Shown in pieces: positions 6,160-64,000 of a DNA stretch of 64,000 nt. The translations under genes were made by a program, and so were the position numbers. The stretch comes from Trichodelitschia bisporula (lineage: Eukaryota; Ascomycota; Dothideomycetes; Phaeotrichales; Phaeotrichaceae): assembly GCA_010356995.1 (NCBI GenBank), contig ML996700.1:628999-692998 (forward strand). Direction: 5' to 3'. The number at the start of each line of letters is the position of its first letter. The stretch's first letter is position 1. The notes below the pieces were generated by a model. That model had not been told where the DNA came from. It ran no database searches and was given only the letters and a program-made list of their open reading frames with translations.

Positions 6160-9100
6160 CTAGACGCTGCTTCCCCCTCCTCTAGCTTCACCGCGTTCTG
6201 CCCCCTCACCACGGGGTCTTCCTCCATTTCCACCGGGTCTTCCATCACGACGAGGTCTTCCATCACCGCCTGGTCTTCCATCCCCACGGGGTCTTCCCTC
6301 ACCACCTGGTCTTCCATCACCACGAGGTCCCCCATCATCACGCGGTCTCCGATCCCCTCTCCCACGGTTCTCCGAATCCCCTCTCCCACGTCCAATTGTC
6401 ACGGGTCTTCCGTCACCTGCATGCCCTTCACGCGGTCTCCCATCACCCCCCCGTCCCCTCTCACCCCCCCCTCCCCGTCCCCTATTCTCACCCCGTCCCT
6501 GTCCACGCCCACGATTCCGCTCCGCCGGCGTCGGCGTAGTTTGCATATTCTCCCTGCGCTGGGCCCGCCTATCAGCCGGCGGCACAGTTGACCATTCCGG
6601 CGTAGGTTGGGGCTTACCCGACGATGGCTCCGCAGAGGTACTATAGCGGGGGCTCTCCAGGCCCGACGGCGCAGGCGAAGGCGTAGTGCTGGGCTCAGTC
6701 GATGACGGCTCCGATGTCGTAGGCGTAGGACTGGGCTTAGCAGGCGTAGGGCTGGGCTTAGCCGGTGTAGGGCTGGGCTTGGCTGGAGAAGTCGGCGACG
6801 GTGAAAGGGTAGGCGTTGGTTTAGCCGGGGCGGGGGATGGCGAGGGCGTCGGGCCGGACTTAGGCAGGGCCGGTGCTGGTGAGGGCGTGGGGCCGGACTT
6901 AGGCGGAGTCGGCGATGGCGAGGACGTGGAACCGGACTTAGGCGGTGACGGCGACGCCGAAGGCGGAGGCCCGTTGCTCCAGGCCGGCTTAGCCGGCTGC
7001 AGAGCGGGCTTGAGCGGGGGCTCGGGTGCCTGGGGCGCGGGCTTAGGGGCCGGCTTAGGGGCCGGCTTGTGGGGGCCCTTGCCTCGCCCGTCGGCGCCCT
7101 TGCCCTTGCCCTTGGCCGGGCCACTTTGACGATCCCGCCGATTATCCCATTCGCCGCCTGGGGCGAACTTGGAATCGATTACACCGCTCCATTTCTTGTT
7201 GTCGGTCGCGGGCTTCTCGGGCGTAGGGTTGGACCGGCCCGAGGACGGCGCTGGCGAGGGCGTATGAGACGACTGACGCGACGAAGGCGTAGGGCTAGGC
7301 TTAGCCCCGGACGGCGATGTCCCGGACTGAGGCCGATTCCACGCCGGCTTGGCTGACGGCGCCGCGGGCTTCGAGGGAGCCGGTTTTGTGGACTGCCCGT
7401 TATTCGTCCGGTTTTCGGGGGCGAACCTCGAGTCTTCCAGAGTTCCGAGCGGTTTCTTGCCGGTCGTGGGCTCGAAGGGCTTGGTGTTGGGATTGAAGGG
7501 CTTGGATGTGGGATCGAAGGCTTTGGCATTGGGATCGATGGAGCTGGACTTGGTAGGCGTAGGGCTGGACTTAGCTGGAGACGGCGATGCCGAAGGTGCA
7601 GGGCTGGACTCAGCCGGGGACGGGCTCAATGCCGGAGGTGTAGGCGAGTGAGTGGCCCTGGTATGCTTAACGGTTTCCGTACTCACGGCCTTGCCGCCTG
7701 AGGTCTTTTTGTGAACCTGGGTGACATCTGAGGACTTCACAGGGGTCTGAAGCAAGTCTTCAAATAGCTGTTCTTCAAATGTGCGCAGGTTGGCGGCATC
7801 GGCGGCTTGAATAATCTTGGGCGCATTTTTCCAATCGGCAAGTGCGCTCGCCGGGGTCTTGCCGGGCGGAAGAGGCGTTGCTGTAGGGGCAGGCGTAGGC
7901 GTTGGCTCAGCCGGTGCTGACTCAGCCGGGGCCGTCTCCGGTTTCGAAGGCGAAGGCGTAGGCGTGGGCTCCAGCATGGATGGCGGGGTGGGAGCCTTCC
8001 ACGTCGGCTCGACTGGCGGCGGAGCGGGTGTGTGCACCGGAGACGGTGGGGTAGGCGGGCACTCCTCAAGCGGCGGAGACGGCTTCTTAATAGCCACCAG
8101 CTTCTTCTTGGCGGGCTTGGGCCCAGGAGCAGGAGCAGGCTCAGTAGGCGCAGACGCAGGAGCAGGAGCAGGTTCAGTAGGCGCAGACGCAAGAGCAGGG
8201 GCAGGCTTGGTAGGCGCCGTCGTAGGTGCCGACTTCTTCACTGACCTCCTGCGGCCCCTGGTCCTCTTCTTGGTAGGAAATCCCCACGGCGTGGTGGGAG
8301 CAGGCTCGAGCTCGGTGGGCGTAGAGCCCTGCTTCGACTTGCCCGGCGGGGTGTACAGCGGCCGCTTTGGCTTCTTGGTCGGTTTAGGGTCGATGGGCCG
8401 AGGGGCCGACTTCTTGGTACGCTTGGACTTGGCATGCTGCAGGTCATACTCACCGCTCGGGCCCCATTTGCTGTTAATTCCTAGCTCGCCGTCGTACGGC
8501 TCATTCATCGGCCCGTCCATTACTTCGCCTTCAGAGGAGCTGTCTCCTTCGGCGGGCTTGTCGGTCGAAACAGGAGGTAGTTGGTCCGGCTTCTTGGTCG
8601 GCTTGGGGTCGACGGGCTTCGGGGCCGGCTTCTTGCTAGGCCTGGACTCGGGATACTGAAGGTCATAATCACTGCCCTCATCCCACCTGCTGCCTAGTGG
8701 CTTGCCGTCGGACCGCGGATTTAACGCCCCGTCTACTATTTCGCCTTCAGAGGAGCTTTCTCCTTCAACAGCGTCGTTGGTCGAGGTAGGAGGTGGCCGG
8801 TCCGGCTTCTCGGTCGGATTGGGGTCGACGGGAGGAGGTGGCTGGCCCGGCTTCTTGATCGGCTTGGGGTCGACGGGCGGAGGAACCGACTTCGTGGTAC
8901 GCTTGGACTCGGTACGTTTCGGGGCCGGCTTCTTGCTAGGCCTGGACTCGGAATACTTAAGGTCATACTCACCACCATCACCCCACCTGCTGCCTAGTGG
9001 CTTGCCGTCGGACCGTGGATTTAACGGCCCGTCTACTATTTCGCCTTCGGAGGAGCTGTCTCCTTCAGCGGGATCGTCGGTCGAGGTAGGAAGTGGCTGG

Positions 9101-12100
9101 TCCGACTTCTCTGTGGGGTTGGACTCGGTGGGCTTAGGTGGCAGAGTAGGCAGTGCCGATTCGGAGTCAGGTTCCCCATTGGCCTTAGCTTGATCATCTT
9201 CTTGGAGCGTCTCCGTGGTGGGCGTGGGAGCGGGCTCGAGAGCCGGCGTCGGCGTGGGAGCGGGTTCGGGAGCCGGCGTCTGCGTGGCAGGCGAGCGGGC
9301 CATTTCCGCAGCCTTAGCCTGAGCACGCTCTCGGCTCTCCTCCCGTTGCTTCTCTTCGGCATCGCGGCGAGCAAGGGTGGACTTGATGTAAGGGCGGCGG
9401 TCCGGCAAGGGGCGTGGCTCATCTGAAGAATTAGTTGAAGGAGTGGTCCGGGCGGATTCTGGAATCGGAGTTTTCTTGAGGTACTCTTCTGCAAAGTTGC
9501 CCTCTTCGTCGGAGTCCAGGTCGTCCCAATGCTTCACCTGAGGTTCCGGTGTTACAGTAGCGTCATCAGTGGTAACCTCCTCAGTGGAAATATCCTCAGT
9601 GGTGACATCCTCAGTCGTAGCCTCCTCAGTCGTAGCATCCTCAGTCGTAACCTCCTCAGTAATCTCACCATGACCATCCTCCTCATGACCAGTCTCCCTC
9701 TCATCAGCTTCCTCCTCACCAGCCTTCCCCTCATCGGCCTCCTTCTCAGCAGCTTTCTCGAAATCCTCCTCATTCGTATAGCTTGCGGGGGGGTCATCGT
9801 TTGCGGAAGTTCTACTTTCGGTCTGCTGAGTTGTTTTAGCCATCTCTTCTTCTTCGAGGGTTTCTTGTTGCTTACGCTTTTCGGCGGCCTTACGCTCCAC
9901 CTCCTTACGCTTCATCTCCTTCCTTGCATCCATCGCCGCTGTGGCGTCCCGCATGGCCATCTCAAAGATCTCCTCCTCTATCGCCCGGGCGGCAGCGGCC
10001 TTTTCGGCGGCCTGGCGCTCCGCATCCTCCTCCGCCTTATGGGCATCTTCGGCGGCCTGGCGCTCCGCCGCCTTCTTTGCCTTAAGTTCGGCCTTTTTGC
10101 ATTCGCCCGCCTCCTTTCTCCGATCGCTTGAGACCTTCTTTGACCGCGCGCTCTCCGCATCGGCCTTCTCTGCTGCCGCCTTGTCAGCAGCGAGCTTGTC
10201 GGTGGCGGCCTTCTCGGCAGCGAGCTTGTCGGCGGCTGCCTTCTCGGCGGCCTGCTTCTCCTGAGCGGCCAGGTGCGCAGCAGCCTTCTCGGCCTTGTAC
10301 TTCTCGGCAAGGGCCATTGCGGCGGCCTTCTTCTCCTTCTTCTTCTCTTCCAGATTCCTCCATTTTTTTTGCTTGCGCGATAGAGGCTCTTCACTGCTGG
10401 GAGCGTCCAGAGTTGGCGCAGGAGCCGGACTTGGAGTGGACGCAGGAACCTGATTAGAAGTCTGAGGAGGAACGGAGGAGCGAGTGGAGTGACGGTTGAA
10501 ATCCTCAATGAGATCATTCATAAGGTCTTCCTTGGTGACCTGGGGATTGAGCACGGGCGACGACGGCGGTTCGTTCAACGAGTTATGACTGTCGTCATTA
10601 TCGTCGGCGTCGTCATCGTCCTTAGCGCTCTGCGTGTCACGCGGCTCCCAAACCGCAGGCGAAGGCACAGGAGCACGCAGAGCAGACTCGGGTACGACAG
10701 GCGTAGGCTTCGGTGCCTCCGCCGCCGGCTTCGGTGCTTCAGCCGTAGGCTTCGCAGCCGTAGGCTTTGTAGCCGGCGGGGGTCCGGAGAACTGAGGGAA
10801 AAGTGGCGTCTTCACGGGCGACTTAGGCTTCGGAGCTTTGGAGCTGGGGGTGAACTCAAATTTTTTACCTTTTCTGAGCAAGAAGCGCTCCGATGCGCCA
10901 GTGGCCGGAGGCAGGGGAGCAGGCGGTGCGGCCCCGGGAGCGGCAGGCCTCGGTTCAGTCGTTTGAGATGCTTGCTTCGGGATCTCAGGCTGTGTGGTCG
11001 GCTTGAGCACCTCAGCCGCTGGCTTTGAAGCTTCGGGCTTCTTAGCCGGCGGGGGTCCCGAGAACTGGGGTAACAACGGCGTCTTCGGTGGCACCTTCGC
11101 CTTCGGAGCTTTCCCGCTGAGATTGAACTCAAACTGCTTGTCTTTCTTCAGGGAGAAGGACTGCGGGGCGCCAATTTCCGGAGGCAGCTTCGCCGAAGTT
11201 GGGGCGGAGCCGGTCGGACCAGTGCTGGTTGGAGGGGCCGAGAGAGGGCTGTCTGGTTTTTTACGGAAGAGATCCTCAAACAACATGTTATCGAACGTCA
11301 CCGCGTTTGGATGCTTCGCCGTAAGGGGGACAGAAGGACGCTTCTTGCCGCCCTTCGTGCCTTGGCCCGCATCGTCATCTGCATCGGAAGACGACGAAGA
11401 CGAATCGGCCTTCTGTGGGATAAACTTCGTAAGCGACGGTAACTTGGACGTAAAGTCAAGCGGTTTATCAAAGACTGAAGGAACCCGAGCACCCGGCACG
11501 AGAGGAGGAGCGGCGAAGGGGGTGGGAGGAGCAAGCCCAGAGCTGGAGAGGGGCTCGCGGTTGGGAGCGGCTGCCTCCCGATCAAACTCGGTCATGGTGC
11601 CCGGCCTAACCCACGACGGTCGCAGCGGTATGATCTTGCGGCCCAGGCGCGGGTCATAAGTCGGACGTGGAGTGACAACGGGAGCCGGAGTCGGGGGAGG
11701 GACAGGACCCGAAGCCGGGGGAGAAATAGCATCAACATCTGATGTTTCTGACTCATCCCCAACATGCTCAAGCATATCATCAATATCATCCTCGCTGTTG
11801 ACGTAAGGTAGGCCGGCCGGGGGCGAGGGACTCGTACGCATAGGAAGAGGTGTAGAGCCCTCGTCAGAGTCTTCTTCAAATGTCTTCTCAATGGTTTCTT
11901 CTATCGTCCTCTGCCATTCCATCGCATCGCTATCATCGTCGGAGACCGGCGAATCGCTGCCCTTCACGGGCTCCTGGGTCTCTGTTGCGGGAGGATTGGT
12001 CTCGGTAGCTGGAGGATTGGTCTCAATGGCGGGAGGATTGGTCTCGATAGCGGGACGATTCTGTTCCGAAGTAGCCCTATTCTTCTCCATGAACTCCTGG

Positions 12101-14736
12101 TAGGCCGAGCGTCCAGTGCGCCTAAAGCGGGACGGACGAGGCATCGGCTTCGGGATGAATTTCGGTTTGGGCGCAGTCTCATGAGAAGCCTCAGGAGCCG
12201 GTTTATCATCCGCAGAAGAGTCGGAGGCCTCAGGCGAGGGTGTGCGTTCTCTCTCAACAGCTTCATCAATCACCTTCTCACTTTCCTTAGCATCACTATC
12301 AGTGTCGGAGCCCAGTTCGCTCAATGATGAGTCGCTGGCCTCCATGAGTTTCTGCACCTCCGTGGTGACTTTATCATCGCTCGTTGTTGGAGGAAATGAG
12401 CGCAGAGGAGTCTTGTACGTCTCAGAGAACTCCCTGTAGGTGGGGTACCCAGGGATGGAGGGGCGAGGCGGACGCAGCGGCTTGGGGATGAATTTCGGTT
12501 TGGCCATAGTATCAGAAACCGCACGAGCCGGTTTCTCATTCGAAGACTCGGAACGCTCGGAGGGCGAATCATGAACTTTCTCCAAGGCCTTTTCCTCCAA
12601 CGCTTTTTTCTTCAAGCTTTTCATCATTGCTCCCTCCATGGCCCTCACTTCTTCAGCGGTGGAAAAACCATCATCAACGGGGGAGGACAAATTACTATCG
12701 TCGGAGGGCAGTTCACCTGGAGCCGAGTCGCTGTTCTCAACATGTTCCTCATGCTCCGATTTAACAACACTTTCAGGCCTGGCTGGTTCTTTCTCTCCCT
12801 CATCGGAGGAAGGGCCATGGATTTCTCTAAAAGCTTCGTCGTCCTCGTTATTCGATGCGGGGCGATAGAGCTCCGAGTCCGGCTCAGGGGCTTCCTGGTC
12901 CTGATCCGTAATCGCCTCAGGAGCTGGAGGAGCCGGCGGCGTCAGAGCTGGCGGTGTCAGAGCTGGCGGTGTCAGAGCCCGGGGCGTCGGAGCCGGGGGC
13001 GTGGGAGCCAGTGGCGAGAGAGCGGGTGGGGTCTGCGCCTCTGGCGTCTGAGCCGGTGGAGTCGGCGTCTTCGGTGCCTTAGCCGGTGGCGTTAGCGTCT
13101 TGGGTGTCGGAGCCGGTGGAGTCGGCGTCTTGGGTGCCTGATCCGGTGGAGTCGGCGTCTTGGGTGCCGGAGCCGGTGGTGTCACCTTCTGCGGAGTTTG
13201 AGCCGGTGGCGTTGGGGTCTTCGGTTTCGGAGCCTCGGGCGTCGGAGCCTCGCTGACATGGTCGGGTGTAGATTCCCTAGAACTCTCTGTCCGGACATTT
13301 GTGCCGCTAGGGCTCGTCGTCTTCTCGACCCATTGCGCAGGAGGAGCTTTACCAAGGAAATTAGGAGGGTTCCTAACCCATTCAGGAGTGAGACGTGAGC
13401 TTGTCTTGGACTTCGAAGCGTCATTCTTGGGATCGGCAGCTGCGGTCTTCTTCGCTGGAGTAGTCTCATCAGCGGCAGACGCGGGAGCAGGCGCGGGAGC
13501 AGGAGCATCAACCGGAATCGCTGGCTCGGGAAGCTGAAGATCCTGAAGGGGAGGGGTGACAGCAGACACAGGAACAGACGCCAGGGTGGCGGAGACAGAA
13601 GTCGAAGGCAAATGTTTGTTCGAATCAACGGCCGAAATGAGCTTTCCAAGAATGTTCTCAATAGCCTTAGTGTTGGGAGAGATCAGCGGCGCCGGAGCCG
13701 GAGCCTGGGCAGGAGCCGGAGCTGCTGGAGCAGGCTGCACCGCGGTAGCACTCGAAGTAAACTTCTCAATGATCCGTCCAAGCGCTACGGCATTTGGAGA
13801 CGAGATCAGAGGGACCGGGGCAGGAGCCGGAGCCGCTGGAGCGGACTTCGCGGCAGAAACGGTCGAGGCAAACTTTTCAAGGATCTGTCCAAGCGCTCTG
13901 GCATTTGGAGACGAGATCAAAGTTACTTGAGCCGGAGCAGGGGCGAGAGCGGTTGTGGGAGCTGCGTTCGCATTGGATGTGACGGTGCCGGCAAGCTGCT
14001 CGAGCGCCCGGACCAAAGGCGACGGGATCGAGGGAGTATGGTTAACGACAATGACCGGCGTAGGATTGCGTCGAACCAAGGAGCGTCCACGGTGGTGAGG
14101 AGGAGACGCGGCGCGAGGGCGAGGACGGCCGCGAGGACTTGGGTCATCATCGTCATCATTGTTGTCAGATGGAGTGTCGTCGCGCGGCGCAGGTGAAAAG
14201 GGACCGGGAGTCTTGGGCTCCAGACGTGGCGGTGCCTTAAAGCGACGGCCTGGTCTGACATCAGGGTCGCGAGGCGTCGGATCGCTCGGTGGATTATCTG
14301 AGGAATTGTCAGGGGTCAATGTCTTAGACGGGGGAGACGGCGTGGTCGGTTTTGGACCAGGCTTACTTTCATCACCGGACGAGTCGCCATTGTCAGTTCC
14401 AGGCTTGCGCGTGATGTCCACTGGAGGCTGAGGCTTGGTGCTGTTGGCAAAATAGTTGCCATTCTTCCACAGGAAGATGTTGTCGGCAACTTTGCTCCGT
14501 CCATACTTTACCGCAGCCGCCAGCTCACTCTCGAGGTCGCTTGTGTCCATGATGGGAATGGGTGCCCGAGTCAAACGGCCGATGAAGACGATTGAAAGGG
14601 CCGAGAAAAACATGATTAGGAGCTGGGGAAAGAGAAAGGAAGCATAAGCTCCCTCAGAGAGGTGATCGTAAGCCATCGTATCAATCCGATACTGATAGGA
14701 GAAACCTGCGAGAGGTGTGTCGTTGGAAAACTTCAT
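6160..14736 (-). CDS. Giant disordered Pro/Ala/Lys/Glu-rich repeat protein with N-terminal membrane segment and RGG tail
   Basis: A single ORF of 2,858 codons with no intron. I do not recognise the family. Residues about 33-53 form one strong hydrophobic helix, then a small ordered-looking block follows (about 58-100, including AAVKYGRSKVADNIFLWKNG). The remainder is low-complexity: four SPN.RALGQILEKF units (13.64-14.04 kb); Pro-Thr-Pro repeats (12.92-13.25 kb); two KPKFIPKP...EF blocks (about 12.1 and 12.5 kb); two PLxPQFSGPPPA blocks (10.8 and 11.08 kb); a long Lys/Ala/Glu helix (9.83-10.39 kb); TTEDATTEE repeats (9.55-9.68 kb); three SSSEGE repeats (8.45-9.1 kb); and a Gly-Arg-Asp RGG/RGD-rich end (6.16-6.5 kb). 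A short motif S-[RK]-[WF] followed by a Gly/Asp-rich stretch recurs in the C-terminal half. A start at 14676 is also possible. The features suggest a membrane-tethered scaffold or RNA-binding protein, but this is inference. It is convergent with the CCDC174-like gene. Confidence 0.8.
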   Translation of the reverse strand: MKFSNDTPLAGFSYQYRIDTMAYDHLSEGAYASFLFPQLLIMFFSALSIVFIGRLTRAPIPIMDTSDLESELAAAVKYGRSKVADNIFLWKNGNYFANSTKPQPPVDITRKPGTDNGDSSGDESKPGPKPTTPSPPSKTLTPDNSSDNPPSDPTPRDPDVRPGRRFKAPPRLEPKTPGPFSPAPRDDTPSDNNDDDDDPSPRGRPRPRAASPPHHRGRSLVRRNPTPVIVVNHTPSIPSPLVRALEQLAGTVTSNANAAPTTALAPAPAQVTLISSPNARALGQILEKFASTVSAAKSAPAAPAPAPVPLISSPNAVALGRIIEKFTSSATAVQPAPAAPAPAQAPAPAPLISPNTKAIENILGKLISAVDSNKHLPSTSVSATLASVPVSAVTPPLQDLQLPEPAIPVDAPAPAPAPASAADETTPAKKTAAADPKNDASKSKTSSRLTPEWVRNPPNFLGKAPPAQWVEKTTSPSGTNVRTESSRESTPDHVSEAPTPEAPKPKTPTPPAQTPQKVTPPAPAPKTPTPPDQAPKTPTPPAPTPKTLTPPAKAPKTPTPPAQTPEAQTPPALSPLAPTPPAPTPRALTPPALTPPALTPPAPPAPEAITDQDQEAPEPDSELYRPASNNEDDEAFREIHGPSSDEGEKEPARPESVVKSEHEEHVENSDSAPGELPSDDSNLSSPVDDGFSTAEEVRAMEGAMMKSLKKKALEEKALEKVHDSPSERSESSNEKPARAVSDTMAKPKFIPKPLRPPRPSIPGYPTYREFSETYKTPLRSFPPTTSDDKVTTEVQKLMEASDSSLSELGSDTDSDAKESEKVIDEAVERERTPSPEASDSSADDKPAPEASHETAPKPKFIPKPMPRPSRFRRTGRSAYQEFMEKNRATSEQNRPAIETNPPAIETNPPATETNPPATETQEPVKGSDSPVSDDDSDAMEWQRTIEETIEKTFEEDSDEGSTPLPMRTSPSPPAGLPYVNSEDDIDDMLEHVGDESETSDVDAISPPASGPVPPPTPAPVVTPRPTYDPRLGRKIIPLRPSWVRPGTMTEFDREAAAPNREPLSSSGLAPPTPFAAPPLVPGARVPSVFDKPLDFTSKLPSLTKFIPQKADSSSSSSDADDDAGQGTKGGKKRPSVPLTAKHPNAVTFDNMLFEDLFRKKPDSPLSAPPTSTGPTGSAPTSAKLPPEIGAPQSFSLKKDKQFEFNLSGKAPKAKVPPKTPLLPQFSGPPPAKKPEASKPAAEVLKPTTQPEIPKQASQTTEPRPAAPGAAPPAPLPPATGASERFLLRKGKKFEFTPSSKAPKPKSPVKTPLFPQFSGPPPATKPTAAKPTAEAPKPAAEAPKPTPVVPESALRAPVPSPAVWEPRDTQSAKDDDDADDNDDSHNSLNEPPSSPVLNPQVTKEDLMNDLIEDFNRHSTRSSVPPQTSNQVPASTPSPAPAPTLDAPSSEEPLSRKQKKWRNLEEKKKEKKAAAMALAEKYKAEKAAAHLAAQEKQAAEKAAADKLAAEKAATDKLAADKAAAEKADAESARSKKVSSDRRKEAGECKKAELKAKKAAERQAAEDAHKAEEDAERQAAEKAAAARAIEEEIFEMAMRDATAAMDARKEMKRKEVERKAAEKRKQQETLEEEEMAKTTQQTESRTSANDDPPASYTNEEDFEKAAEKEADEGKAGEEEADERETGHEEDGHGEITEEVTTEDATTEEATTEDVTTEDISTEEVTTDDATVTPEPQVKHWDDLDSDEEGNFAEEYLKKTPIPESARTTPSTNSSDEPRPLPDRRPYIKSTLARRDAEEKQREESRERAQAKAAEMARSPATQTPAPEPAPTPTPALEPAPTPTTETLQEDDQAKANGEPDSESALPTLPPKPTESNPTEKSDQPLPTSTDDPAEGDSSSEGEIVDGPLNPRSDGKPLGSRWGDGGEYDLKYSESRPSKKPAPKRTESKRTTKSVPPPVDPKPIKKPGQPPPPVDPNPTEKPDRPPPTSTNDAVEGESSSEGEIVDGALNPRSDGKPLGSRWDEGSDYDLQYPESRPSKKPAPKPVDPKPTKKPDQLPPVSTDKPAEGDSSSEGEVMDGPMNEPYDGELGINSKWGPSGEYDLQHAKSKRTKKSAPRPIDPKPTKKPKRPLYTPPGKSKQGSTPTELEPAPTTPWGFPTKKRTRGRRRSVKKSAPTTAPTKPAPALASAPTEPAPAPASAPTEPAPAPGPKPAKKKLVAIKKPSPPLEECPPTPPSPVHTPAPPPVEPTWKAPTPPSMLEPTPTPSPSKPETAPAESAPAEPTPTPAPTATPLPPGKTPASALADWKNAPKIIQAADAANLRTFEEQLFEDLLQTPVKSSDVTQVHKKTSGGKAVSTETVKHTRATHSPTPPALSPSPAESSPAPSASPSPAKSSPTPTKSSSIDPNAKAFDPTSKPFNPNTKPFEPTTGKKPLGTLEDSRFAPENRTNNGQSTKPAPSKPAAPSAKPAWNRPQSGTSPSGAKPSPTPSSRQSSHTPSPAPSSGRSNPTPEKPATDNKKWSGVIDSKFAPGGEWDNRRDRQSGPAKGKGKGADGRGKGPHKPAPKPAPKPAPQAPEPPLKPALQPAKPAWSNGPPPSASPSPPKSGSTSSPSPTPPKSGPTPSPAPALPKSGPTPSPSPAPAKPTPTLSPSPTSPAKPSPTPAKPSPTPAKPSPTPTTSEPSSTEPSTTPSPAPSGLESPRYSTSAEPSSGKPQPTPEWSTVPPADRRAQRRENMQTTPTPAERNRGRGQGRGENRGRGGGGERGRGGDGRPREGHAGDGRPVTIGRGRGDSENRGRGDRRPRDDGGPRGDGRPGGEGRPRGDGRPGGDGRPRRDGRPGGNGGRPRGEGAERGEARGGGSSV
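6163..6520 (-). repeat. RGG/RGD-rich C-terminal repeat coding segment
   Basis: The end of the giant ORF encodes many degenerate GRPRGDGRPGGD-type units, arginine-glycine-rich and resembling RGG boxes of RNA-binding proteins. The DNA is a short-period imperfect tandem repeat seen on the plus strand as recurrent ggtcttcc(a/c)tca. Confidence 0.75.
8641..9066 (-). repeat. 300-bp tandem duplication inside the giant ORF (with an older third unit)
   Basis: The blocks at 8641-8766 and 8941-9066 are nearly the same sequence exactly 300 bp apart. Each encodes a copy of EGEIVDG.LNPRSDGKPLGSRW. A more diverged third unit lies at about 8440-8550 (EGEVMDGPMN). The 300-bp spacing keeps the frame. Confidence 0.85.
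13640..14040 (-). repeat. Four-unit repeat (about 115 bp each) inside the giant ORF
   Basis: Four divergent copies encode SPxxRALxQxxxKF followed by an Ala-Pro-rich linker, at about 14.02, 13.90, 13.78 and 13.66 kb. The amphipathic repeated helix is the only regularly spaced ordered-looking element in this part of the protein. Confidence 0.7.
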
Positions 14737-15250
14737 CGTTGCGGAAATGAAGAATTTGAAAACGACAGTGTGGTGTAGTTGTCAGGAGACGGAGCTCAGC
14801 AACAGAAATCGAGGACTATATCCTCAAAACGAGCAATCTTCCAAGACGCGCGGGCGCCGGTGCCAGGAGTTCGAAAACGGGGGGAAATGGAAAAACAATT
14901 GCAGCGCCTGCGCTGTCTGATGTTGCAAATGAGGGAATCAAGGGTGAGACGATAGCAACGTGACGTTGGATATGCCAAGGAGGTGGAAGCAACGAACAGT
15001 GTCCGAACAATTCCAAGGCCAATACCCGTGGGCTAAATAGTCCCGGGACAAAGGCTAAAAGCAACAATCAGTAGACAAGTGGCGATGCACAAGAGGGACA
15101 CAAGAACAAAGACACTCGAGCTGGTTGGGACGGCGTGACCACCAGAGGATGCCGACAACCACACAACAAAGGCCGACACAATGAGCGGTGAAAATCGAGT
15201 CCACAAGCAAGCGATCCAAAGGCCAGAGAGAACGAATGTTGATTGCATTA
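14737..15250. promoter_or_regulatory. Upstream region of the giant ORF
   Basis: These 514 bp lie between the giant ORF start and the DAP1 stop, with both genes on the minus strand. The region should hold the promoter and leader of the giant gene. I see no other gene and no motif I can name. Confidence 0.4.
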
Positions 15251-20389: not shown

Positions 20390-20595
20390 TGTCACGGTAT
20401 GACACCCGGTTCTGCAGCTCCATGGGCTCGCACCATCACCGGGTTTGCGTGAGGCTTGGCGCTGTGCCAAGCCGCCACACTCACACTCACACACCAGGCC
20501 TACTTACCCGCAGTCCCTGACATCTTTGCTCGTAGCTTTACAATCTACGTCTTACCCACATCTTGATCGTGCATGCGTGATTGTTGACGGTGACA
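20390..20595. mobile_element. Solo LTR, copy 1 (206 bp)
   Basis: The repeat begins TGTCAC and ends GTGACA, and is flanked by a perfect 5-bp direct repeat CAGGT (20385-20389 and 20596-20600). A second member lies at 55591-55798 and is about 94% identical by eye. Ends, size and target duplication are those of a short LTR left by recombination between the two LTRs of a retroelement. With no internal region the superfamily (Copia, Gypsy or TRIM-like) cannot be told. The orientation is unknown. Confidence 0.85.
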
Positions 20596-55590: not shown

Positions 55591-55798
55591 TGTCACGGTA
55601 TGACACCCGGTTTCTGTTGCTCCATGGGCTCGCACCATCACCGGGGTTGTATGGGGCTTGGCGCTGTGCCAAGCCGCCACACTCACACTCGTATACCAGG
55701 CCTACTTACCCGCAGTCCCTGACATCTTTACTCCGTAGCTTTACAATCTACGTCCTACCCACATCTTGATCGTGCATGCGTGATTGTTGACGGTGACA
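55591..55798. mobile_element. Solo LTR, copy 2 (208 bp)
   Basis: The repeat begins TGTCAC, ends GTGACA and is flanked by a perfect 5-bp direct repeat GAATG (55586-55590 and 55799-55803). It is the same family and orientation as the copy at 20390-20595. No internal retroelement sequence adjoins it. Confidence 0.87.
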
Positions 55799-55963
55799 GA
55801 ATGCGGGCTTGGTAGAAGCACGAGACAGAGCTTACGTAGTAGCATAAAGGCTCAGCATGGGACAAAGCAAGATCACGTCACAAGGCACAATACGAACAGG
55901 ACGAGAGGAACAATAAGATATTAATCCACATAGGGAAGCAATCAGTGAAATCAACAAGAGGAG

Positions 55964-56048
55964 ACGTATGAGCCTGAGAAACGCATAAGCGTAGGAAACG
56001 TATGAGTGCGGGAGACGAGTAAGCGTAGGAGACGAGACAGTACGAAGG
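55964..56048. repeat. 17-bp degenerate minisatellite, about five units
   Basis: Units follow the pattern ACG(T/C/A)A(T/G)(G/A)AG(C/T)G(T)(A/G)GGA(A/G), such as ACGCATAAGCGTAGGAA and ACGAGTAAGCGTAGGAG. The array fades on both sides. Confidence 0.65.
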
Positions 56049-56456
56049 CGTGAGCAAGGAGGCAAGTGTGAAAGCGCAGGTGGTCAAGATGAAAGTGACA
56101 AGAGAGTAAGGGAGAGTAGTAGGCGAGGGGGTTCATACGGATGCAGATCCCTCTGTCACAACATCAACACCCCTAACCGGGGCACACTGGGCTCCCACAC
56201 CCATCCCCACACGAGAGCAATCCAGTCATCTTGCTGTTCATTTCTCGCCGTGGTGTCCTTACCGTACCGTACGGTGGGGGGGCGTGCGCGGGTAGTACTC
56301 TGCTGGCACGTGGCTGGTGTGGCTGATAGGAGTGGTTGATCTTAGGAACAACGTTATTCCGGGGCCGTGCATAATCCCTGCCCCGGCACACGCTCGCCAA
56401 AATCGACGCTCATCAAAACCATTAAGCCTCAACCCAACCGCCAACGTACGTCAACC

Positions 56457-57185
56457 ATGGCTTCGACTCAGAGCGTCCAATGCGTGAGTATTGCACTTAT
56501 GGAACGAATACGAATGAATCGCTGACAATTTGCTACAGTTCGGCAAGAAGAAGACTGCTACGGGTATGTTTCCATTTTGTCTTCATGAAAAATGCCTGCG
56601 CTAACAAATGGATTGTAGCCGTCGCCCACTGCAAGGTACAACCCGCATACACACTCAGAATTGCAAAACAGCTCGCTCATAGTTTGTCAAATAGGCTGGC
56701 AAGGGCTTGGTCAAGGTCAACGGCAAGCCGCTCTACCTCGTCCAGCCTGAGATCCTCCGGTTCAAGGTTTACGAGCCCATCCTGATCCTCGGCCTCGATA
56801 AGTTCGGTACGCACGCGCAGCACAGAATCCGCAGTGGAATACACGGCTTACAGTTTATAGCGAACGTTGACATCCGTGTGCGCGTCTCCGGTGGTGGTCA
56901 CACTTCGCAGATCTACGCGATCCGCCAGGCGATTGCCAAGTCCATCGTACGTTCCTCGACCGGGCAGAGGGCTTTAACCTCGTATACTGTATATCGGAAC
57001 CGAGACTGACATTCGGCCAGATTGCCTACTACCAGAAGTTCGTCGACGAGCACGCCAAGAACCTGCTCAAGCAGGCGCTTGTGCAGTACGACCGGACCCT
57101 GTTGGTTGCGGACAACCGCCGGACTGAGCCGAAGAAGTTTGGCGGTCCGGGTGCGCGTGCGAGATACCAAAAGTCTTACCGTTAA
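56457..57185 (+). CDS. RPS16: Small-subunit ribosomal protein uS9 (RPS16)
   Basis: Six exons, 56457-56483, 56539-56563, 56619-56635, 56695-56806, 56861-56946 and 57021-57185, give 143 residues, exactly the length of yeast Rps16. The protein reads [27 protein letters not shown] at the start. It carries [43 protein letters not shown] and the invariant end [17 protein letters not shown], whose terminal arginine contacts P-site tRNA. Five introns of 54-74 nt in a 432-nt coding sequence include three in the first 70 coding bases, with exons of 27, 25 and 17 nt. Early clustered introns are usual for fungal ribosomal protein genes. Confidence 0.97.
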
Positions 57186-57642
57186 AGGGCTTCTCTTTGG
57201 GGGCGCATGCGGATGGGGATGGGGTTTCTTGTGCTGCATTTCAAGGGTTCTTGTTCTTGCTAGCCTTCATGATGTAGAAATGAAAGCGCCGGCGAGATGG
57301 GACTAGACACGGAACTTCTCTGCATTGTGCTTGAATACCACGATGACTGGCCGGTGGACATTGCGAGGGGAATATTTCACTTAACATCACGATTTTAGCG
57401 ACGAACCATTCCATTGCATGACTTGAATTAGCGAAGTTTCCCATTCGTAAATTTTATGGCATCATGGAGTCACCAAGGCAGCGCTGTACGACACGACTGC
57501 TAACGTTGTCCAGACCACCGTACCCTCCCCTAACGAACTCTGGAAATACAGGGCGACTCGGTCCCAAGCCCGAACAAGGGTTTTCATGAGCGCAGCGAAG
57601 ACTTCTAGTTCCTGAAGTATACAAAATCCATCAAGTTAGCGG
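57186..57642. other. Convergent 3' interval between RPS16 and the ChAP gene
   Basis: These 457 bp must hold both 3' UTRs. No gene or clear terminator structure is visible. Confidence 0.4.
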
Positions 57643-60041
57643 CTAACCCTCCGTCCCACTGCTGTGGAACGCCGCACAAAGAGCCGCATACTGGTGTGTA
57701 AGATCGAGGACATGTTGCTGTAGACTTGTGCCCTGGATGATACTGCGAACCTTGACCGCGCCCTCTTCCTCAATGAGCTTGCGGACGGTAAGCAGGAGTG
57801 CCGGTGAAAACTAGATAATCAGTATCCGTCAGACGCACCGCGCAAGCAGACATACCTCCGAATACCAGCGATACTGCCACGTGACAAGCCGAATCAGCGC
57901 GCCGAGCACCATGCGCAACTCCCCGTGCTGTTCGTACACCTTGAGCACGCCCTTCATGGCCTTAGGACTGAAGCGCATGCTCAGACACGCCTGGTACGCC
58001 TCGACCGCCTCCTCGGCATGGTGCAGGCGCTCAGCCAGCTCACCGAGGATCTCCCACTCCTCGGGCGACTTCTTGTAGAGCAGCTGCTGCTGGCGGTACT
58101 GCGCGACTTCGGTGCGCCAGATGGTGTACACGCGCAGATCTTCGTACAGGACCATGAAGAGGTTGTCTAGCCAGCGTTCGCAGAGGCGCTTGTTGCGGAA
58201 CTGCATGTATTCGGGCTGGGAACCCTCCGTGTGCGGCTGGCTTGTTAGTACGTGATAGTCATATTGATACGAAAGGTCACTAACCACGTCGCTACCGGCC
58301 AGCGCCTCCGCTGCTGCCATGCTATGTGCGGGCTTTTCGACCTCGGAGCCTAGATCGGGAGTGGCGTCGGGAGCAGGGGCCGGGGATGATTCCAGTGCGG
58401 TCTCGGGCGTGGCTTCCGACTCAGGTTCCGCCGATGGTCTACGCTCCGCCTCTGGTGACTCATGGCCGTTCAACCGCGGGCTAGGGCCGGGAGAGGGAGA
58501 TGGACCTCTTAGCGCGGTGGTGCTCGGGTTTCTGCTGTGCCCTGCTGCGGCTTTCCGCTCATGCCGATACTCCTCCTCCATGACGAAAACCTGGCTGCGG
58601 ATGCGCAGGAGCTGGTCCCAGCCGATCTTCTTGGTAATCTCAGTGAGAAGCTTGTACGCCTTGGAGAATGTGCCCTTGAAGCCTGCGGCGTGCAGTTTGC
58701 GTAGAGTGGGATGAACCTGCTCCATATCCGGGGTGGCCTGGCTGTCATCGATTTCGTCACAGATGGTCTCCGGCATGGTGGGCAGATGTGTTCGAAGCGG
58801 CTCGGGCATCCGGGGAGCGTCCTTGTCTTGGTAGGTGAACATCGGGCAAGAGTTGAGCGTTAGCAGAGCAAGTCCCCACTGCTCCAAGCTTACGTATATT
58901 TCGGCAAGGCGAGCCCATGTCCCGAATTCACTGGGGGCGGCCACCACGGCACGTTTGGCAGTTTCCAGTGCCAGATCCGCACGGCCCTTGTTGTTGAGGA
59001 ACTCGGCCTGACAGTCAAGTAGGGAATAGTCCATGGGGAGACTCTGGATACTCTCGTGAAGCAGCTGCACCGCCTTGACCTCTTCGTCAGCCGCAATGTA
59101 GACCCGAGCAAGGAGCGACGAAATCTCTGGGTCCCTGGTGCGAAGCTTCTCAAACAGGTTGATGCCCGATGTGTAGCGGCCAGTGGTGCGAATGTACTCC
59201 AACAAGCCGGTGGTGAGGTGGTTCGACACCAGGTTTGGAACCTGGATTTCGGGATCAGAGCCGAGCTGCCATCCCTGGAAGAATAGCCTCTCAGCTGCCT
59301 CCAGAAACTTGTGCTCGGCCTCCGTGCTGGTGATCGGGTTAAATCTCCGCACTCCCATGATTTTCTTGATAGTCTCGCCCGAGCCGTCGTCGGCGTACGA
59401 GTAGGCGCGCAACACGGCGCATAGGTACGTCTCCAACCACAAGGCATCTGTGGCTTCCCGCTTATCTCCACGCTCGTCGATGCAATAGCTCTCTACGGTG
59501 CCTGGAATCTGGACCTGGACCCGCATGTCGAGGCGGGAGAACGCATTGTAGCAGCTTAATCCCGTTAGCAACATCCGAAGACTTGAAGCCCTGCGTCCTA
59601 CCAATAGAGTCCTGAATTCACCTTATGACGGTCATGAGTGGGGTATGTGAGTGTGTTGATGTAGGCAGCTAAGCTGGCAGAGCTCGACGCGTCGACGCCG
59701 GTGACATGGTGGTATATGCCGAACTTGAAGTGACATTAGCTAACTTATTCCAGGACTGATGTAAAGTAGTTCCAGCGTACCTGCTTGTTCGCTCCCTTCT
59801 GGGGGGTCTTTACGAGGAGGACGAGGTCCGGCGGTCCTAGCTCCCGGAGAGACTGAAGGGATTCGGTTCGCAGATCGATGGTTGAGCCTAGTTCCTCCTC
59901 ATAGATCCTTTCAGAGCAGCAATGTTAGCCTCGGAACAGCAGCTATCATACGGCGAGAATGCGCAGCGCATGAACTTGCGCACCGGACAAGCCCCGAGCG
60001 GTGAATTAGACGTACTCTGGCACGCAAGGAACGGGAACCAT
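57643..60041 (-). CDS. ChAP-family exomer subunit (Chs5-Arf1p-binding protein, CHS6/BUD7/BCH-like)
   Basis: Exons on the minus strand are 60016-60041, 59781-59907, 59622-59723, about 57856-59554 and 57643-57810, giving roughly 700 residues. Family blocks are YHHVTGVDASSSASLAAYINTLTY, CYNAFSRLDMRVQVQIPGTVESYC, TPR-like helices (ALETAKRAVVAAPSEFGTWARLAEIY) and the conserved C-terminal part (YEDLRVYTIWRTE, then YSEFSPALLLTVRKLI across the last 45-nt intron). A Ser/Pro-rich insert lies at about residues 395-480. Exomer is the trans-Golgi coat that sends chitin synthase and other cargo to the cell surface, and filamentous fungi have one or few ChAPs. The junction between the third and fourth exons is unresolved: the third ends in phase 0 at 59622, while the next conserved block needs a phase-2 entry. 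The start at 60041 (MVPVPCVPE) is supported by splicing into EIYEEELGSTIDLRT. Confidence 0.88.
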
Positions 60042-60618
60042 TGTGCTGGTGCTCGCCCTTGAGATGGCGCAAAAGGGTGATGTAATGAAGTGAGCGGATG
60101 CAGTAGTTCAGGCTGCCAATTAAAGGTTAAGGAGGACAACTTTGCATACAGCTTCAAGTTCGTAACAAGCGGTGCTCCGATGTTTAGGGATACGTTGCCA
60201 AGCCACCCGTGCCTGCCCTGCCACTCATCTCTCCCCACCCGTGCCCACCTCCGTCTCCCCACGTCTCCCGCAAACTGTTCAACCCCAGCTGAGACGGAAT
60301 AAAGATGATCCATTTATATGGTAGCTCTGTGGCGGAGCGGGCGTACCTGGTGTGGCTGTTCCTCCACCATTTCGCGCGTCTCGAGCCTGGCCGCGTGTCG
60401 CTGCCCAAGGGCAATTCAGTGACGAAGCAAACGCGATGTCACCCCCCTCTTCGCTACCTCCACCCCCACTACAGTAGTCACACCAGCACCGTCTTCATTC
60501 TACATCCCGATCTCTAGCGCAAGGCAGTCATCTTCTACCCAGTTTCCAGTCTATCAACACGCTCCTTCCGAAAGCCTGAACGGATTGCGACTGTGTCGCG
60601 GGCGGTACACTCGTCAAA
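60042..60618. promoter_or_regulatory. Divergent promoter region of the ChAP gene and HIR3
   Basis: These 577 bp lie between divergent starts. CT/CA-rich tracts before 60619 look like the HIR3 leader. No named site was recognised. Confidence 0.4.
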
Positions 60619-63600
60619 ATGGTATGCAACATCATACCGTCGCTGCGGCCGCGCACCCGACATGCTTAACGTGCCTTATTCTAACAATTGCAAGTCTACC
60701 TTCACTGCCCTGAACATCGATTACGATAAGAACATCGCCGAACCCGATGTCGATGACACGAAAGAACTGCAGATCGAAGATGCTCTCAAACTCTATCAGA
60801 CTGCTCTGAAGTATCACATAGAAGGCCCGCGTTCATTTGACAAGGCCGCCGAAGCGTACAAGGAGCTCTTCGAATCAGAGATCTTCAAGTACATCGAATC
60901 GCAGTCAGAGTTCAGGCGGGAAGAGGTCGACGGCGCAATCGAAGGCTTGGAAGACTTCTCCCAGATCCTTGTCGACGTCGACCCCGTGCAACTGGTGACC
61001 TCCGGAGAGAGTGCGCCCAATACCCTCCCTCAGATTCTACATCTGTCCTACAAAAGCTATGGACAGTTCCTTCTCGACCAGCTGCCGCACAGCCTCGATC
61101 GCATAACCTCCCGCGCGAAGGAACCGCTGAACAACTTTGCCGAGGCTTTGGACAAGGATGACACCGATCTGGAGCTTTGGCGTAACGCTGCGACGGTGGC
61201 CAGCATTGTCGGAAGCGTCCGCATTGCGAGATACTGCCTGGAGTCGATGCTTGATACGGAGGAGGAAGGGATGGAAACGGCGCTGGGGATTCCCGCGATC
61301 GAGGAACTCTACGCCAAAGAGAAGTTGGAGGTTCTTGTCAAAGCGGTTCAGGACGATCTCGCCGGGTACCTTGTCCCACTCTCGGACGTTGGGCGGAAAC
61401 GACTTTCTGAGAAGCTGATGAAGCGGCTTGATGGCCCATTCCACGTCATACAGCCGTCCTACGAGACTATCGCCTACCGTAAATCGCAACCTGTTCAGCC
61501 TTCGCGCCACTTCTTTGCCGTCCCAACTCGAAACTGGGACAGCGTTGGGCGAGCTATCGTCAGCAACCGCATGCAGGAAGTTGAAGGTACTGTTTACAAC
61601 GGTCCGAATTTCGCAGTTGGGTTTACTTTGCCTGAACCCGAGGACACCGAAATCGAAAACGCCCCTGAAGTGGAATCTCCAAAGCATATCTCCGACTCAT
61701 CAAACGTGGTGGAAGACGTTCCGTCAGTGCCTGAAGAAGTCCCTGCTTTAGGCCCCGGATCTGACGCGGCAGTGGCCTCTGTGGCTTCAGCTGACGACCA
61801 GGACGTGAAGCTGGAGGAAGCTGAGGCACAAACCGAGACCTCCCATGCGGACCAGGCCACTCCCGAAGCCAAAGATGATGTCCCGAATACCGCAGAAAAG
61901 GGGAGGAAGCGCTCTACTGACTCTGCCGGGTTCCCTGATACCGTCGAAGGGGTCCGCCTTCGCAGTAAGCGTATCCGTGCACGGGAAACTCTGGATGGGC
62001 CGAGCGAGCCGGTTGTCAGCACCTCCAACAAAGACCAACTTGAAACCCATATCCAGTCGGATGGCTGGTTATTTGAGACAGTTGAGCAGCTATTCTCGAA
62101 GATCAACGTCGAGGGACTTGGACCCGTCCAAACCCTTGAGGATTTGGAAGACTCGAATGACTCAACAGCAACTTCCGTACAGGATCCTATGGCCCCTGCC
62201 AAAAAGGATCTTTACGAAGCTTCTAAGATTTCCTCTTTGCTAATGCTGAGACTATTAACAGATGGCGCTGAAGGGGACAACATAGATGATCTTGGAAGTG
62301 CATCCCGCAAAAACGGACTACATGCTGTTCTCGGTCACGCGAACGCGGGGGCATCGCGCGCTTGCAAAAAACCCGTGGTTGGGCCATCCGAAGGTTTGGC
62401 CAACTGGGTGGAAGCCATCAATACCAAATGGACTTCCGAGAACGAGGCCGCATGGGAGTTTCTCCTTGTGTTTCTGAAATGTAGCACCTTTCCTAGCGGC
62501 CTGGGCGCCAGCTCATCCAGCTACATGATGCATCGGTGGCCGGAAGCACTCAAGACGGTAATCGTGCAACTAGCGGTGGGGTTCGATGAGTTTGTCTATC
62601 AGGAAGCCTCAAATCTGATCACCGAAATCAGCGACAAGGTTCTCAAGCACGAGACCCTCGGCTTGGGCTGTCTTCTGGATGAAGATGAATTGGTCGTTAT
62701 CGAAATGGTGGAGAACTTCTTTGAGCTTCATCTCGATGTGTACTCCAGGATCAAGCATCCGGAGAGCGGAGTGGATTTGGAGAAGAGAACTGCACAGAAG
62801 CACACGTTGGACAGGTGGTCTCTGCTCGCAAACACGGGCCTAAATCTGCGCGGCGTCACGGAGCAGCTGGACGAACTTGCTCTCAGACACCTATGGTCGA
62901 CAGTCTTCCACCTCAGCGTTTCGGACGATGTTTCTCAATCCCAAATCATCGACTGTATGAGCCAGATGAAGGGCACGCTCCTCAGTCTAGGCGATCCTTG
63001 CATTGAGCTTCAGAATAACGCAGTTATCCCGGAGATTTCCGTTGCGGCTGTCAACCAGGAACTAAATAAGATCAGCATGAGAGACTTTTTCGTAAAACTT
63101 TTCAGCAATGAAAAGGAGGATCCGGCGACAGCGATCGAGAACCTCGAACCTCTTCTCGAGCTGGCTCTGTCGCATAGCACTGGGCAAAATTCTGGTCAGG
63201 ACGAGAACGCGAGCACCAGCGTCTCGCGCGGCCAGGTGTTGCCATTGGAAGAAATGAGCAGCTTTCTCGGCAAGACCGACTTAATTCTTCGATTATCGCT
63301 GTTACAGCGTCTGCGACAAGCCTATGCTGGCATCGATTACCCTCCAGGCGTTATTTTATCCTACTTTCGAAGCATCAGGCTTCTCGTTGATGAGCTGACA
63401 AGCCCCTCTTACTTGGACCTGCCCAGCGAGAAGCGGCGTCTCCTCATCTTCCGCTGGTTGCATCTTGCAAATGCATTTGTGGATAAGGTTTTGGTGCTTG
63501 TCAACGAGACGACTGAACCTTATGAATATCTCGGTGCCGATGACTTAGCGGCTACCATGACTTCCCTTGTTCGCTTGGTGCGACTGCTCCATTCGATCAA

Positions 63601-64000
63601 CCTCTACAACGACTCAATTCGAGCAGAACTGGTTCCAGCTCCGTCCATGGACGGCAGACGCAACATGACGTTTGACGTGATATGGACCAAGCTCAACAAT
63701 CTGCAACTACGCGTTTGGATTCTGCTCTATAGTCTTTTCAACGAAGCTATCGAGCAACATTCTGAAGCCTTTCCCACCCCAGCGGAGTGCAGACTTGAGC
63801 TTCTTCGATCTCTTCACAATGCCCTGGGCTACCGCCGTGTATGTGCCGCTGCCGGGAAAGAACTCCTGCTGCTGATGAAGGAAGAATTTCTCAAACTATC
63901 CGATCTCGAAACTGCGCATGATGAGCTGGGGCAGGTCTTGTTTGATCTTTACGGTCTGCGATGCTCGCCAGCCTCGGTGGAGCCTATTGACCACGGCTGC
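60619..64000 (+). CDS. HIR3: Histone transcription regulator 3 (HIR complex subunit, CABIN1-like), 5' part
   Basis: The first coding exon is the ATG alone (60619-60621), followed by a 73-nt intron (60622-60694). The second exon opens at 60695 and stays open to the window end, about 1,100 residues. The N-terminus MSTFTALNIDYDKN, then VDDTKELQIEDALKLYQTALKYH, is the Hir3 family start with TPR-like helices (LELWRNAATVASIVGSVRIARYCLE). An acidic, Ser/Glu-rich disordered insert lies near residues 315-430, with a basic KRSKRIR-like patch (RLRSKRIRARE). Helical repeats continue to the edge. The HIR complex deposits H3-H4 outside S phase and represses histone genes. Fungal Hir3 is about 1,700-2,000 residues, so roughly 40% lies beyond the window. 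Confidence 0.92.

Follow-up and report, generated by a model that had tools for sequence, protein, structure and literature searches.

A 2,858-codon open reading frame of Trichodelitschia bisporula for a giant, mostly disordered protein, possibly a membrane-RNA scaffold

In the 64,000-nucleotide stretch of Trichodelitschia bisporula contig ML996700.1 analysed here (positions 628,999 to 692,998; hereafter the window), a very long open frame raises two questions: whether it is a gene, and what its protein might do. A preliminary description had taken it for an intronless gene encoding a membrane-tethered, disordered protein with an arginine-glycine tail, perhaps one that holds RNA at a membrane. 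Taken as a whole, that observation was partly confirmed and that interpretation partly supported. We read the locus as a genuine, selected gene, single-exon or nearly so, for a giant mostly disordered protein. Coordinates of its features are window positions on the minus strand.

An uninterrupted frame among ordinary genes

The single open reading frame occupies positions 6160..14736, from an ATG at 14736 to a stop codon ending at 6160, and comprises 2,858 codons plus stop with no internal stop, as had been described for this 8.6-kb interval. In 30 first-order Markov simulations scanned in six frames, the longest open run averaged 236 codons and never exceeded 321; the ORF length is therefore far beyond chance. 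No open run was longer in the 173.5 kb of the tally, which covered the window and eleven loci; the next in length had 1,406 (length uncertain), 1,204 and 1,161 codons. This tally is biased because most of the loci were chosen for holding hits. Outside the tally, an open frame of 1,660 codons occurred at C14:582k. Synonymous codon use was then compared with a reference of nine coding stretches in full windows of 150 codons, the last few codons being omitted. Of the three forward frames, that of the giant scored best in 18 of 19 windows, the exception being the Arg/Gly tail. A reverse frame, however, outscored it in 12 of these windows and also when the ORF was scored as a whole (0.099 versus 0.083 for the true frame); the codon test alone is thus not decisive.

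The absence of introns was examined by scanning the ORF for strict donor, branch and acceptor candidates and comparing the count with 200 synonymous shuffles; two were observed versus 1.05 expected. One candidate is in frame, measures 69 bases (ORF nt 371-439) and carries donor, branch and acceptor motifs, whereas the other intron-like stretch, of 59 bases at ORF nt 8120, would put the tail out of frame if excised. The intronless claim thus held in that the frame is open throughout, but one in-frame intron is possible. These motifs could also be taken to mean that several genes or spliced pieces have been misread as one frame. With candidates not clearly above the shuffled expectation, a frame open from end to end and a tail that would lose its frame with the second candidate, we regard that explanation as very improbable.

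The giant is flanked by genes for TOR, homoserine dehydrogenase and a DUF4078/CCDC174-like protein on one side and for a Cyt-b5-like and a PPR protein on the other. The neighbours had been credited with an intron every 100-300 coding bases, and this proved overstated: long open exons lie nearby, as judged from exon lengths and not from a tally of introns per gene. We found open exons of at least 994 codons in the TOR gene, 364 in the homoserine dehydrogenase gene, 573 in the PPR gene and, further off in the window, 597 in the ChAPs gene, and frames open from ATG to stop of 377 codons in the DUF4078/CCDC174-like gene and 154 codons in the Cyt-b5-like gene. Because the flanks are ordinary genes and the copies described below occur as single short pieces, not as numerous elements resembling one another, a transposon was judged unlikely.

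A predicted N-terminal helix, repeats and an Arg/Gly-rich tail

The N-terminal block (residues 1-104; 14425..14736), pieces of which recur at C8, C3 and C16:576k in the same genome, contains a membrane helix predicted at residues 34-52 (14581..14637) by hydropathy and by AlphaFold. Residues 34-52 form the best Kyte-Doolittle 19-mer of the whole protein, and their score of 2.31 was reached by only 9 of 5,000 shuffles of residues 1-104; beyond residue 80 the best 19-mer scored 1.08, and no second hydrophobic helix was found on this scale. AlphaFold, given residues 1-127 alone, placed a helix at residues 10-56, with mean pLDDT values of 86 (31-40), 94 (41-50) and 75 (51-60); the overall mean was 61 and the rest of the model was weak. 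As a prediction, therefore, the one N-terminal membrane helix of the preliminary description was borne out. A PDB match of residues 1-127 to a tau entry (E 0.012, residues 53-75) was taken as chance. The positive-inside rule predicts the cytosolic side of a membrane helix from flanking charge; here acidic residues (D19, D24, E28) precede the helix and two arginines (R54, R57) follow it, and by this rule the pattern would fit a cytosolic C-terminal chain. In the C3 copy of the N-terminus, charged residues break the helix and the 19-mer score falls to 0.96 versus 2.31 in the giant. Membrane-RNA tethering is weakened by this result, because the helix is not kept in that copy.

Within the ORF, Tandem Repeats Finder listed over seven different arrays, in agreement with the at least seven internal repeat families first reported. 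They include a 111-base array (SSPNA..LG.I.EKF motif; 13707..13919), Pro/Ala/Thr tandem repeats with periods of 30, 60 and 90 bases (13020..13245) and a 216-base repeat (SSSEGE..DG.LNPRSDGKPLGSRW; 8369..8832; dN/dS 0.68). An F.LKK.K.FEF motif occurs twice, at residues 1194-1234 (11035..11157) and 1285-1325 (10762..10884), and this internal pair gave a dN/dS of 0.22. Over the six internal repeat pairs compared, that was the lowest value; of the others, three gave 0.48-0.68, one lacked silent changes and one had diverged too far. In mid-protein lies a Lys/Ala/Glu-rich segment (residues 1452-1628; 9853..10383), residues 1451-1640 being 28% A, 18% K and 17% E. Its richness agrees with the long Lys/Ala/Glu helix that had been described, and by composition the segment can be called helix-like. 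The tail (residues 2700-2858; 6163..6639) is Arg/Gly-rich by composition, with 28% G and 22% R, and its 16 RG place it among RG/RGG-rich sequences. RGG triplets are few (3 of the 16), and what had been named an RGG tail is better described as an RG tail. By charge-hydropathy, 46 of 56 windows of the protein were classed as disordered. The reading as one giant disordered protein, with a single helix at the N-terminus and a tail rich in RG, is supported.

A triple PAM2-like heptad repeat was found at residues 2398-2423 (7468..7545) with a relaxed pattern, which had been composed after the sequence was seen. Its three matches overlap in one repeat; shuffles averaged 0.108 matches, and none of 1,000 reached three. 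The exact PAM2 consensus xxLNxxAxEFxP is absent from the protein; the best matches to it have four of six letters, none with Phe, and the relaxed candidates three of six. GWW is likewise absent from the whole protein. These motifs bear on a comparison with Upa2 of Ustilago maydis, which the excerpt of PMC9249222 describes as an endosomal mRNA scaffold with four PAM2 motifs and a C-terminal GWW. Like this scaffold tied to mRNA transport, the giant might be a soluble mRNA scaffold, with the N-terminal hydrophobic stretch amphipathic or protein-binding and not an anchor. The triple repeat, the Lys/Ala/Glu segment in mid-protein and the loss of helix hydrophobicity in the C3 copy point in this direction. 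The giant, however, has only PAM2-like repeats, overlapping and recognized post hoc, with neither an exact PAM2 nor the GWW given for Upa2 in the same excerpt, and we consider such a soluble scaffold distinctly unlikely.

Relatives were sought with the whole protein, which matched no Pfam or NCBIfam family and no PDB chain at E 0.001, and with residues 1-104, which had no confirmed relative among 69 bacterial/archaeal and 13 viral contig stretches; the latter search used six short peptide patterns able to find close relatives only. The statement that the protein belongs to no characterised family thus stands, in a weak form, within Pfam, NCBIfam, PDB and the bacterial/archaeal and viral contigs searched. 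A literature query on fungal RGG/transmembrane tethers returned no such protein by title among the matches listed, and one on intronless intrinsically disordered basidiomycete proteins returned, among the titles given, a match on gene transfer only.

Pieces of the ORF elsewhere in the genome

When the genome (25.65 Mb, 30 contigs) was searched, nine short pieces of the giant were found at seven places. They span ORF codons -11 to 2324, with none from beyond codon 2324. Codons 44-102 (14433..14606) have a copy at C8:282017, and the interval from about 35 bases upstream of the ATG to codon 48 (14594..14772) has one at C3:922859-923039, where it opens a 220-aa ORF. Codons 2-42 recur at C16:576k, codons 799-847 (12197..12342) at C6:340922 with 92% DNA identity, and codons 2297-2324 at C11. 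At C2:390k, codons 200-392 (13562..14138) are represented by a collinear decayed copy with one in-frame stop. At C16:669-672k three pieces stand out of order: codons 1174-1215, as a decayed copy at C16:669k; codons 1363-1422 (10471..10650), at C16:671.8k; and codons 462-512 (13203..13352), at C16:671944. Simple decayed full-length paralogues would fit the collinear C2 copy but fail at C16:669-672k, and this explanation was rejected. We read the pieces as the probable trace of a history of copies that break up.

Several further matches were set aside. Those at C8:1022k, C16:699k and C22 were lost at E 0.01 with composition correction, under which the C14:582k match kept 21 residues of the LSRKQKKWRNLEE region (E 0.007). 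This last match (C14:582168-582479) is to the start of the Lys/Ala/Glu segment and falls in the 1,660-codon open frame noted above. Small extra rows obtained with low-complexity masking off were taken as simple-sequence matches and left uncounted; they include 59 bases at 78% on the other strand of the C3 ORF and rows to sequence outside the giant ORF. The C3 ORF itself (C3:922891-923553; 220 aa) starts like the giant (66%, residues 3-48), ends in a box shared with an ORF at C19 and has a weak match at C1:430k (E 0.08); it may be a live small gene. The long, low-complexity minus-strand ORF at C22 (locus L032, 4688-8905; length uncertain) resembles the giant in plan by inspection, having a hydrophobic stretch close to the start as well as repeats of Lys/Ala/Glu, and no homology between the two was detected.

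Six of the nine pieces were assessed for selection, each over between 31 and 58 codons. The dN/dS ratios were 0.18 for C8 (36 codons), 0.22 for C6, 0.26 for codons 462-512 at C16, 0.30 for C3 (39 codons), 0.48 for C2 (31 codons) and 2.35 for codons 1363-1422 at C16. Tested against neutrality, the shortage of nonsynonymous change gave P values of 0.002, 0.020, 0.004, 0.013, 0.18 and 0.93 in the same order, uncorrected for the six tests. Reduced nonsynonymous change was thus observed in several segments, and conservation was not confined to one of them: the pieces derive from nine parts of the ORF, and dN was below dS in five of the six tested. Under a model with one neutral branch and one constrained branch (dN/dS 0.2), only the C8 piece fell below 0.05 (P 0.039), the others ranging from 0.089 to 0.99. 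From the P values under both models, some copies probably remained coding sequence through a large part of their history, the stronger claim depending on the C8 piece.

A second gene carries one block of the giant as well. The W.NAPK block (residues 2296-2373; 7618..7851), part of which recurs at C11, is common to a gene at C20, with 37 of 84 positions identical (E 5e-15 pairwise); the genome search found the C20 match at E 4e-7 over a longer stretch, and the pairwise comparison gave no other significant shared segment. The C20 gene (L031:3599-7210) has 1,204 codons in one open exon and, by inspection, an apparent upstream exon with an intron near the 5' side. Also by inspection, its product is disordered and has an RG-rich tail after the W.NAPK block, the same order as in the giant. 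By DNA alignment score, the C11 piece is slightly nearer to C20 (94) than to the giant (86).

The giant is not alone in having stray pieces: the C20 gene and an orphan at C19 have them too. Those of the C20 gene, three in number and 79 to 122 bases long, are located at C9, C24 and C3, one of them spanning its inferred start codon. The C19 orphan (L008:127-2331; C19:282938-285139) is a 734-aa single-exon ORF that matched nothing in Pfam or NCBIfam; it has 15 further genome matches, six with stops, and a box in common with the copies of the giant's N-terminus at C3 and C16:576k. All three (giant, C19 orphan and C20 gene) have pieces in one 43-kb stretch, C3:903-946 kb. A 9.1-kb stretch taken from the end of the window as a control had 29 non-self hits, of which 28 belonged to one dispersed repeat and one to the first 91 bases; window positions 55803-64000, in which lie the ChAPs gene and a frame of 1,161 codons without a name, gave no hit elsewhere in the genome. 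The dispersed repeat, of about 208 bases (window 55591-55798 and 20390-20595), has 28 other hits, one inside the window, and several lie no more than 10 kb from the start or end of a contig.

These observations bring in the reading of the giant as a young, weakly selected orphan, repeat-expanded, in part put together from fragments of other genes, of little specific function and one of several single-exon orphans whose copies break up. Pieces scattered over seven places, with three out of order at one of them, would be expected of it, as would the similar behaviour of the C19 ORF and the C20 gene; one copy looks unconstrained, and most are compatible with the one-neutral-branch model. The ratios of 0.18-0.30 in four copies and of 0.22 in one internal pair, however, point to constraint, and an 8.6-kb frame has been retained free of stops. 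We regard a young orphan of this kind as possible, on the doubtful side.

A possible membrane-RNA scaffold

Our main reading, to which we give a probability of roughly 0.3, is that the giant is a membrane-RNA scaffold, with membrane, topology, RNA binding and function all inferred from features of the sequence. The N-terminal helix would insert in a membrane, leaving the short N-terminus outside and the chain of 2,800 residues in the cytosol, where it could act as a long multivalent scaffold. The Arg/Gly tail, perhaps with the PAM2-like repeat beside the W.NAPK block, might catch RNA or RNA-protein particles, and these would be held at the membrane much as p180/RRBP1 does for mRNA at the animal ER.

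According to the excerpt of PMC3362647, p180/RRBP1 holds mRNA at the animal ER and has an N-terminus of seven residues, a single membrane helix and a large cytosolic region with basic, tandem-repeat and long helical parts, of which the lysine-rich region binds RNA. Within that description it appears to be the closest plan to that predicted for the giant, one N-terminal membrane helix followed by a huge cytosolic chain, and the Lys/Ala/Glu segment, by composition, may be set beside the RNA-binding lysine-rich region. What links the two is a similar plan; neither a Pfam family nor a PDB chain matched the giant. Unlike p180 as described there, the giant has a terminal RG tail, a Pro-rich acidic chain and a helix-like segment in the middle, and 33 residues precede its predicted membrane helix versus seven in p180.

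A tether of another kind is known from Ascomycota. The excerpt of PMC5345055 presents Lah/leashin as the Woronin-body tether, a giant transmembrane protein of about 500 kDa whose membrane span lies in the C-terminal part and is followed by an extracellular domain, and notes that leashins of different clades are not homologous. The giant could likewise be a disordered organelle tether without an RNA role, anchored by one end in a membrane while its long chain would extend to a different structure, for example a septal pore or the cell envelope. By description, the two share size class, one membrane span and a tether-like plan, and a lack of homology across clades is what leashins themselves display. 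The membrane region of Lah is C-terminal, however, whereas the predicted helix of the giant is N-terminal; beyond residue 80, where no 19-mer exceeds 1.08, hydropathy shows no Lah-type C-terminal span, and the RG tail, not described for Lah in that excerpt, would have no obvious place. An organelle tether of this type seems to us unlikely.

For the membrane-RNA scaffold speak the ORF length, forward-frame codon use, low dN/dS, the helix and the charges beside it, the RG tail, the C20 block and the p180-like plan. Against it stand the loss of the helix in C3, the reverse-frame score, the copy with a dN/dS of 2.35, the three RGG, the lack of an exact PAM2, one possible in-frame intron and a one-neutral-branch model under which only C8 is unexpected. 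In a more specific and rather improbable form, a membrane receptor for RNA particles, similar to p180, would have arisen independently in the fungus: a lineage-restricted single-exon chain of 2,858 residues with its anchor at the N-terminus, the PAM2-like repeat as a catch and an Arg/Gly tail, in a family whose copies have been breaking into short pieces.

In our reading the locus is a real and unusual gene, without a family among those searched and with a plausible putative function. Even a weakly selected orphan would be instructive, as a case in which a very long frame stays intact and decayed copies lie at other places in the genome. If the membrane-RNA scaffold is true, fungi would have a membrane-anchored RNA scaffold without evident kinship to the animal one, and the giant would offer a simple case for how very long disordered genes arise, share blocks and lose paralogues.
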